NCBI GenBank assembly: GCA_036395115.1
Contig: DASWDU010000028.1
Coordinates: 1-59,827, forward strand
Origin: Thermoplasmata archaeon
Lineage (GTDB): Archaea > Thermoplasmatota > Thermoplasmata > RBG-16-68-12
Direction: 5' to 3'
DNA: 59,827 nucleotides
Both the position numbers and the translations under genes were made by a program. Every line of letters begins with the position of its first letter. Within the stretch, counting starts at the first letter, position 1. The notes beneath the pieces were generated by a model. That model did not search any database. It worked only from the letters and a program-made list of their open reading frames with translations, and was not told the origin of the DNA. Below, piece after piece: positions 56,676 to 56,951 of this stretch.

Positions 56676-56789
56676 TGCGGGGGATGGGAATTTCCGCCCC
56701 GCGCGTGCGCGCGGAGCATTTGAACCCACGGACTCCTGCGAGACCGGATCTTAAGTCCGGCGCCGTTGTCCTAGCTTGGCTACCCCCGC
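56676..56789 (-). tRNA. tRNA-Leu (anticodon TAA) with T-loop intron
   Basis: 5' half: acceptor gcggggg, TA, D-arm, anticodon stem ccgga/tccgg with loop CTTAAGA (anticodon TAA), long variable arm and T-stem gtggg followed by TTCAAAT. A 29-nt insert (56689-56717) then separates this from cccat and acceptor 3' cccccgc plus A73 (56676). Removing it restores a 5-bp T-stem, a 7-nt T-loop, a perfect 7-bp acceptor and an 85-nt tRNA. The insert folds into a 9-bp GC hairpin. Without the insert model the 3' half does not pair at all. Confidence 0.88.
56689..56717 (-). other. Noncanonical tRNA intron in the T-loop
   Basis: 29 nt after the T-loop bases TTCAAAT, with 1-nt ambiguity at the border. gctccgcgc pairs with gcgcggggc (one G-U) around the loop gcac. 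The exon-intron borders carry similar aaat sequences, compatible with a bulge-helix-bulge for the archaeal splicing endonuclease. Confidence 0.8.
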
Positions 56790-56951
56790 GCCGCGCCCAT
56801 CGGGCCGTCGGTTAATGCCTTTTACGTTCGGTCGCCTCGGGCGTTCGCCGAACGGCTCCGGCCGCATGGACGCGCGGCAGGCCCGATGCAACGCAACGAC
56901 GTCGGTCCCCCGCGATGCGAATTCGCCCTCATTTCGTTCGCGGTCCGAGGC

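Follow-up and report, generated by a model that had tools for sequence, protein, structure and literature searches.

Evidence for a BHB intron in the T-loop of tRNA-Leu(UAA) in a Thermoplasmata archaeon with a fused alpha'2-like splicing endonuclease

The tRNA-Leu(UAA) gene in the 59,827-nt window (the whole stretch of DNA that was analysed, from a soil-type Thermoplasmata archaeon) is interrupted within its T-loop by 29 nt that take the form of a near-strict BHB intron. Comparative analysis makes it very probable that the gene is functional and that this intron, at position 59/60, is spliced by a fused alpha'2-like endonuclease, with RtcB as the probable ligase. The features of the locus are as follows.

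56676..56789, minus strand: pre-tRNA-Leu(UAA) gene, 114 nt (ARAGORN on the excised form, Rfam score, orthologs, coordinates)
56719..56789, minus strand: 5' exon, tRNA positions 1-59, 71 nt, with the T-stem strand GUGGG and UUCAAA at its 3' end
56751..56753, minus strand: anticodon UAA (ARAGORN, coordinates)
56690..56718, minus strand: probable intron, 29 nt, position 59/60, U GCUCCGCGC GCAC GCGCGGGGC GGAA AU (geometry, helix pairing, covariation)
56676..56689, minus strand: 3' exon, tRNA positions 60-73, U CCCAU CCCCCGC A
56721..56724, minus strand: 5' strand of the central BHB helix, UUCA (T-loop 54-57), pairing with GGAA at 56692-56695, with A57·G as a mismatch
56718..56720, minus strand: 5' bulge AA^U, predicted 5' splice site between 56719 and 56718 (geometry)
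56696..56717, minus strand: intron helix h', 9 bp with a GCAC loop (fold; compensatory changes in 7 of 7 tested pairs)
56689..56691, minus strand: 3' bulge AU^U, predicted 3' splice site between 56690 and 56689 (U60 invariant)
56812..56826, minus strand: CGTAAAAGGCATTAA, a probable promoter element lying about 30 bases upstream (5' flanks of 17 orthologs compared)

The tRNA runs on the minus strand from G1 at 56789 to A73 at 56676, and possesses an acceptor stem (GCGGGGG/CCCCCGC), a long variable arm and a T-stem (GUGGG/CCCAU); the span and anticodon are as an earlier, sequence-only reading had given them. With the 29 nt in place, ARAGORN finds no tRNA in the precursor, whether introns are allowed or not, and the Rfam tRNA model assigns the unspliced gene 24.8 bits, which lies below the gathering score of 29. 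Removal of the 29 nt leads ARAGORN to call tRNA-Leu(taa), bearing out the earlier proposal that one excision restores the tRNA; a full tRNA is regained upon excision, as in archaeal BHB tRNA introns.

BHB introns of archaeal tRNAs are laid out with a 5-bp outer helix, 3-nt bulges and a 4-nt centre, and cleavage falls behind the second base in either bulge. The T-arm RNA, GUGGG-UUCA-AA^U-GCUCCGCGC-GCAC-GCGCGGGGC-GGAA-AU^U-CCCAU, follows this layout closely: the T-stem, the 5' strand of the centre, the 5' bulge, the intron helix, the 3' strand of the centre, the 3' bulge and the T-stem again succeed one another, giving a 5-bp T-stem, a 3-nt bulge, a UUCA/GGAA centre, a second 3-nt bulge and a 9-bp intron helix. 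Folding confirms the hairpin GCUCCGCGC-GCAC-GCGCGGGGC that had previously been described within the 29-nt insert. The only departure is the A·G mismatch, which sits at the inner end of the central helix. A search over 60 relatives returned full-length orthologs within the genus, the family and the order, and the ortholog set, comprising search matches and loci read directly, contains 26 genomes (this one and 25 relatives). Two 3-nt bulges, a 4-bp centre, an outer exon helix and an inner intron helix are present in all 26. The centre is fully paired in six (UUCA with UGAA or UGGA), while the remaining 20, this gene included, carry the single A57·G mismatch. The motif is thus not perfectly strict in the genus, although these counts suggest that the strict form can be reached and that the A·G variant is a small relaxation of it.

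In the proposed mechanism, the T-stem, the UUCA·GGAA pairing and the intron hairpin of the transcript would fold into an arm whose 4-bp centre has a 3-nt bulge on either side. The endonuclease, as a homodimer of one fused two-repeat protein, would then cleave both bulges behind their second base. The exons would be sealed by a putative ligase, probably RtcB, to leave the T-loop UUCAAAU. Transcription, cutting and ligation, like the exact cut sites, are predicted here from sequence comparison.

The genome (2.40 Mb in 50 contigs, 98.45% complete) encodes one splicing endonuclease, in which two EndA repeats (two PF01974 domains) are fused in a single gene. Tyr290, His298 and Lys329 of the second repeat are invariant in 47 of 47 homologs, while the degenerate first repeat has a proline at the histidine position in all 47; a single gene with two fused repeats and the catalytic Tyr-His-Lys confined to the C-terminal one is the alpha'2 arrangement. 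The enzyme is therefore described as an alpha'2-like homodimer, the dimer being deduced from the gene architecture. Its best match in the PDB is the M. kandleri enzyme (5x89). With that enzyme and the alpha'2 EndA proteins of A. fulgidus and T. acidophilum (PDB 1r0v, 2ohc, 5x89), it shares two EndA repeats, a Tyr-His-Lys triad in the second only, and the lack of a CSL or ASL, but it is longer, at about 350 residues compared with 289-305 for the alpha'2 structures. Furthermore, the M. kandleri EndA is of a two-subunit type, with constrained broad specificity in the absence of either loop (PMC6379350), whereas the repeats here are fused in one gene.

The sequence-only reading had suggested looking for an endonuclease of broad specificity, and this expectation did not hold. 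In sequence alignment, the CSL, an insert of about 11 residues in A. pernix EndA (3p1z), is absent from the protein, and none of the 47 homologs appears from its sequence to have an insert at this site. A loop of this kind, inserted after YYG/FFG and bearing a conserved lysine, marks the enzymes of broad specificity, as the CSL of (alpha-beta)2 or the ASL of epsilon2 enzymes; judged from sequence, the protein has neither. Against splicing by this enzyme stand the A·G mismatch in the centre and the description of alpha'2-type enzymes as narrow in specificity (PMC6379350), taking only introns of the anticodon loop. Non-canonical introns, moreover, have been described together with (alpha-beta)2 or epsilon2 enzymes (PMC4033280, PMC6379350), which would favour removal of the intron by a second, undetected subunit or by an unrelated nuclease of broad specificity. 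We consider this improbable, since a single gene with two PF01974 domains was found in all 12 genomes with T-loop introns that were checked (this one and eleven others). As a near-strict BHB geometry stands on the T-stem, the simplest account is that the alpha'2-like enzyme itself would splice the intron.

The intron is best placed at 59/60, where cuts after the second base of each bulge would produce the T-loop UUCAAAU and an intron spanning 56690-56718. The insert had earlier been assigned the same length of 29 nt, which stands, but a position at 60/61, one base away from that favoured by the 26 orthologs. A cut at 60/61 or in another nearby register would give the same mature sequence in this gene, because a U precedes both sites. 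Across the orthologs, however, the base before the 3' T-stem strand is U in 26 of 26, whereas A59 is followed by U, G or A, so that base 60 of the T-loop would vary between species if the cut lay at 60/61 and is always U if it lies at 59/60. Only the latter register, furthermore, sets each cut within a 3-nt bulge. A different register for a real intron is accordingly given only a slight chance.

Comparison of the orthologs shows that the exons are nearly constant across the 26 genomes while the intron diverges, ranging in length from 19 to 34 nt, and that excision gives UUCAAAU in every case. The genus lies near the soil MAGs named Euryarchaeota archaeon EA_n. In family f2, tRNA-Leu(UAA) contains three introns, in the D-loop, at 37/38 and at 59/60 (L109-L111); two introns are present in f6 and in one f2 genome (L112-L114). 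Two members of the order, for example G025 (L115), have an intron-free UAA gene, and the T-loop intron is therefore dispensable in evolution. The UAA genes inspected elsewhere in the class are without a T-loop intron, and some have an intron at 37/38 (L069, L116, L118, L119).

Despite its divergence, the intron retains its pairing. Pairing at the six outer positions of the intron helix, scored over 42 distinct introns, stands at 89%; sliding the register lowers it to 41-46%, and combining strands from different introns lowers it to 53% (at most 63%). The whole motif was tested for covariation on an alignment of 42 distinct T-arms (alignment A1) with 500 shuffles: 90.7% of cells are paired, as opposed to 70.3% after shuffling and 38-58% in slid versions of the motif; 122 cells have changed on both sides, as opposed to 41; and the covariation score is 0.542, as opposed to 0.182. 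Double-sided changes occur in all seven of the intron-helix pairs tested, and none of the 500 shuffles reached the observed covariation values. The BHB assignment thus has covariation behind it. Together, the covariation of the motif and the affiliation of the endonuclease, whose closest relatives are from Euryarchaeota/Thermoplasmata archaea, support the presence of a T-loop intron in the tRNA-Leu(UAA) of a Thermoplasmata archaeon.

Could the locus instead be a pseudogene, decayed through an insertion that is never spliced, with another tRNA reading UUA? That standard gene finders overlook the gene would agree with this, as would the rarity of UUA, which occurs 7 times among the 1037 leucine codons that 28 long ORFs in the window contain. 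Yet the codon is used, and no second UAA gene was found in the 98%-complete genome when the gene itself served as query and the other leucine tRNAs were read; the latter are intact and have the anticodons CAA, CAG, GAG and UAG. A second intact tRNA-Leu(TAA), named beforehand, together with a lack of spliced RNA, as what would speak against an intron, did not turn up. Moreover, the exons have hardly changed within the genus, in contrast to the intron, whose divergence includes compensatory changes, and an AT-rich element about 30 bases upstream, CGTAAAAGGCATTAA here and AAAGGCATTATACC in the genus, is conserved in 17 orthologs and is probably the promoter element of the gene. Because the exons are conserved, decay is very unlikely, and this reading was rejected on the comparative evidence. 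Insertion of the hairpin by an assembly or sequencing artefact, conceivable in a draft genome of 50 contigs, was likewise rejected and can be practically dismissed, since inserts that differ in sequence and nonetheless pair recur at the same site in 25 independent, related genomes.

The spliced tRNA-Leu(UAA) proposed here would not be an isolated case. A covariance model built from this T-arm was used for genome searches and gave two matches in the genome of the window, namely tRNA-Leu(UAA) and a CAU tRNA (G000:C34:84969-85016, L205), whose 59/60 intron is conserved in the genus (L226-L235). This CAU tRNA is probably Ile2 (Ile2/Met), because its acceptor stem is identical to that of tRNA-Ile(GAU). 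A general T-loop pattern gave many chance matches in the same genome, compared with 9 in a reversed control, and only those at the tRNA-Leu(UAA) gene and C34:84972 fit a tRNA. Of 19 further model matches, 18 become recognised tRNAs upon 59/60 excision: Ile2/Met(CAU), Glu(CUC), Arg(UCU), Ser(GGA), Ser(CGA), His(GUG), Asp(GUC), Gln(CUG) and Pro(GGG). In addition, a pattern search of 400 genomes of the class showed that nearly every member of family f15 has T-loop introns in Ser(GCU) and Leu(UAG); a variant of the pattern one C shorter, which serves as a chance estimate, gave only 2 chance matches in 400 genomes. In total, 11 further tRNA species have T-loop introns, with up to seven per genome.

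In a sample of 250 genomes from across the phylum, only 37 give matches at E<=1e-5, and these belong to the order of the window and to f15; the other 213 have no match at this threshold, under strict filters that may miss weak cases. Family f15 was placed in Ca. Lutacidiplasmatales, the order of AcS5-107 (PMC9287336), so that two groups of Thermoplasmata carry such introns. The sequence-only reading was thus right to see a T-loop intron in a member of Thermoplasmatota, but what it took for an unusual oddity has been retained by most of the order and occurs in many tRNAs of a second group. Separately, inserts of related form, 13 nt long, interrupt the T-loops of Leu(UAA) and Ser(GCU) in a genome of family f28 (G156; L217, L218); they possess a perfect UUCA/UGAA centre and no intron helix.

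Other tRNA loci of the genome also merit description. An apparent D-loop intron with a CUUG/CAAG centre is found in tRNA-Pro(GGG) (L037, G000:C27:1602-1712). The 3' part of tRNA-Thr(GGU) is copied 4.7 kb from the intact gene (L202, G000:C37:73803-73868 and C37:78598-78669), as would be left by an integrated element with the tRNA as its attachment site. A second copy of tRNA-Ser(CGA), its 5' end replaced, lies about 0.6 kb from the intact gene (L038, G000:C11:30301-30374), and a degenerate tRNA-Arg(UCG)-like gene adjoins the intact tRNA-Arg(UCG) (L029 and L203, G000:C16:74021-74093).

Non-canonical BHB introns at 59/60 are known from Thermoproteales and other Crenarchaeota (PMC4090602), and the present introns share with them the T-loop position, the BHB splice logic and the occurrence of D-loop and 37/38 introns in the same gene (L109-L111). 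Unlike those, they belong to Thermoplasmata (Euryarchaeota in the older sense), have a near-strict hBHBh' motif and accompany a single alpha'2-like enzyme without a CSL. Canonical 37/38 introns, which in this genome interrupt the tRNAs for Tyr, Lys and Met, have the same BHB layout and, we propose, the same endonuclease; in the present gene, the outer helix is the T-stem in place of the anticodon stem, and T-loop 54-57 forms the centre. A further parallel is Korarchaeum cryptofilum, which a 2014 account named as the sole alpha2 archaeon known to have non-canonical introns (PMC4033280): it too combines an alpha2-type enzyme with introns outside 37/38, but its enzyme has a specific loop that is missing from those described here.

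According to reviews, Euryarchaeota whose endonuclease is of the alpha4 or alpha2 type have only single introns at 37/38, and introns at other positions arose after a broad-specificity enzyme had been acquired (PMC4090602, PMC4033280). The open literature on tRNA introns of Thermoplasmatota, Thermoplasmata, Thermoplasmatales and Methanomassiliicoccales held no report of such T-loop introns; subscription papers and tRNA databases lay outside this scope, so an earlier listing is possible. The text of the Lutacidiplasmatales genome paper, in which tRNAscan-SE was run, does not mention introns (PMC9287336). As far as the open literature searched shows, what is new is the extent of 59/60 introns in Thermoplasmata and their occurrence together with a fused enzyme that lacks the loop.

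T-loop introns, up to seven in a genome, thus occur alongside a loopless fused alpha'2-like enzyme, against the rule of single 37/38 introns. On balance, it appears somewhat probable that in two groups of Thermoplasmata this enzyme regularly excises T-loop (and D-loop) introns, and that introns spread outside the anticodon loop by way of a near-strict BHB built from the T-arm, without an enzyme of broad specificity. Since intron-bearing and intron-free families share the enzyme type, the co-evolution of enzyme and intron position can be tested within one clade. Annotation that is blind to T-loop introns will, moreover, lose essential tRNA genes, as ARAGORN overlooked tRNA-Leu(UAA).
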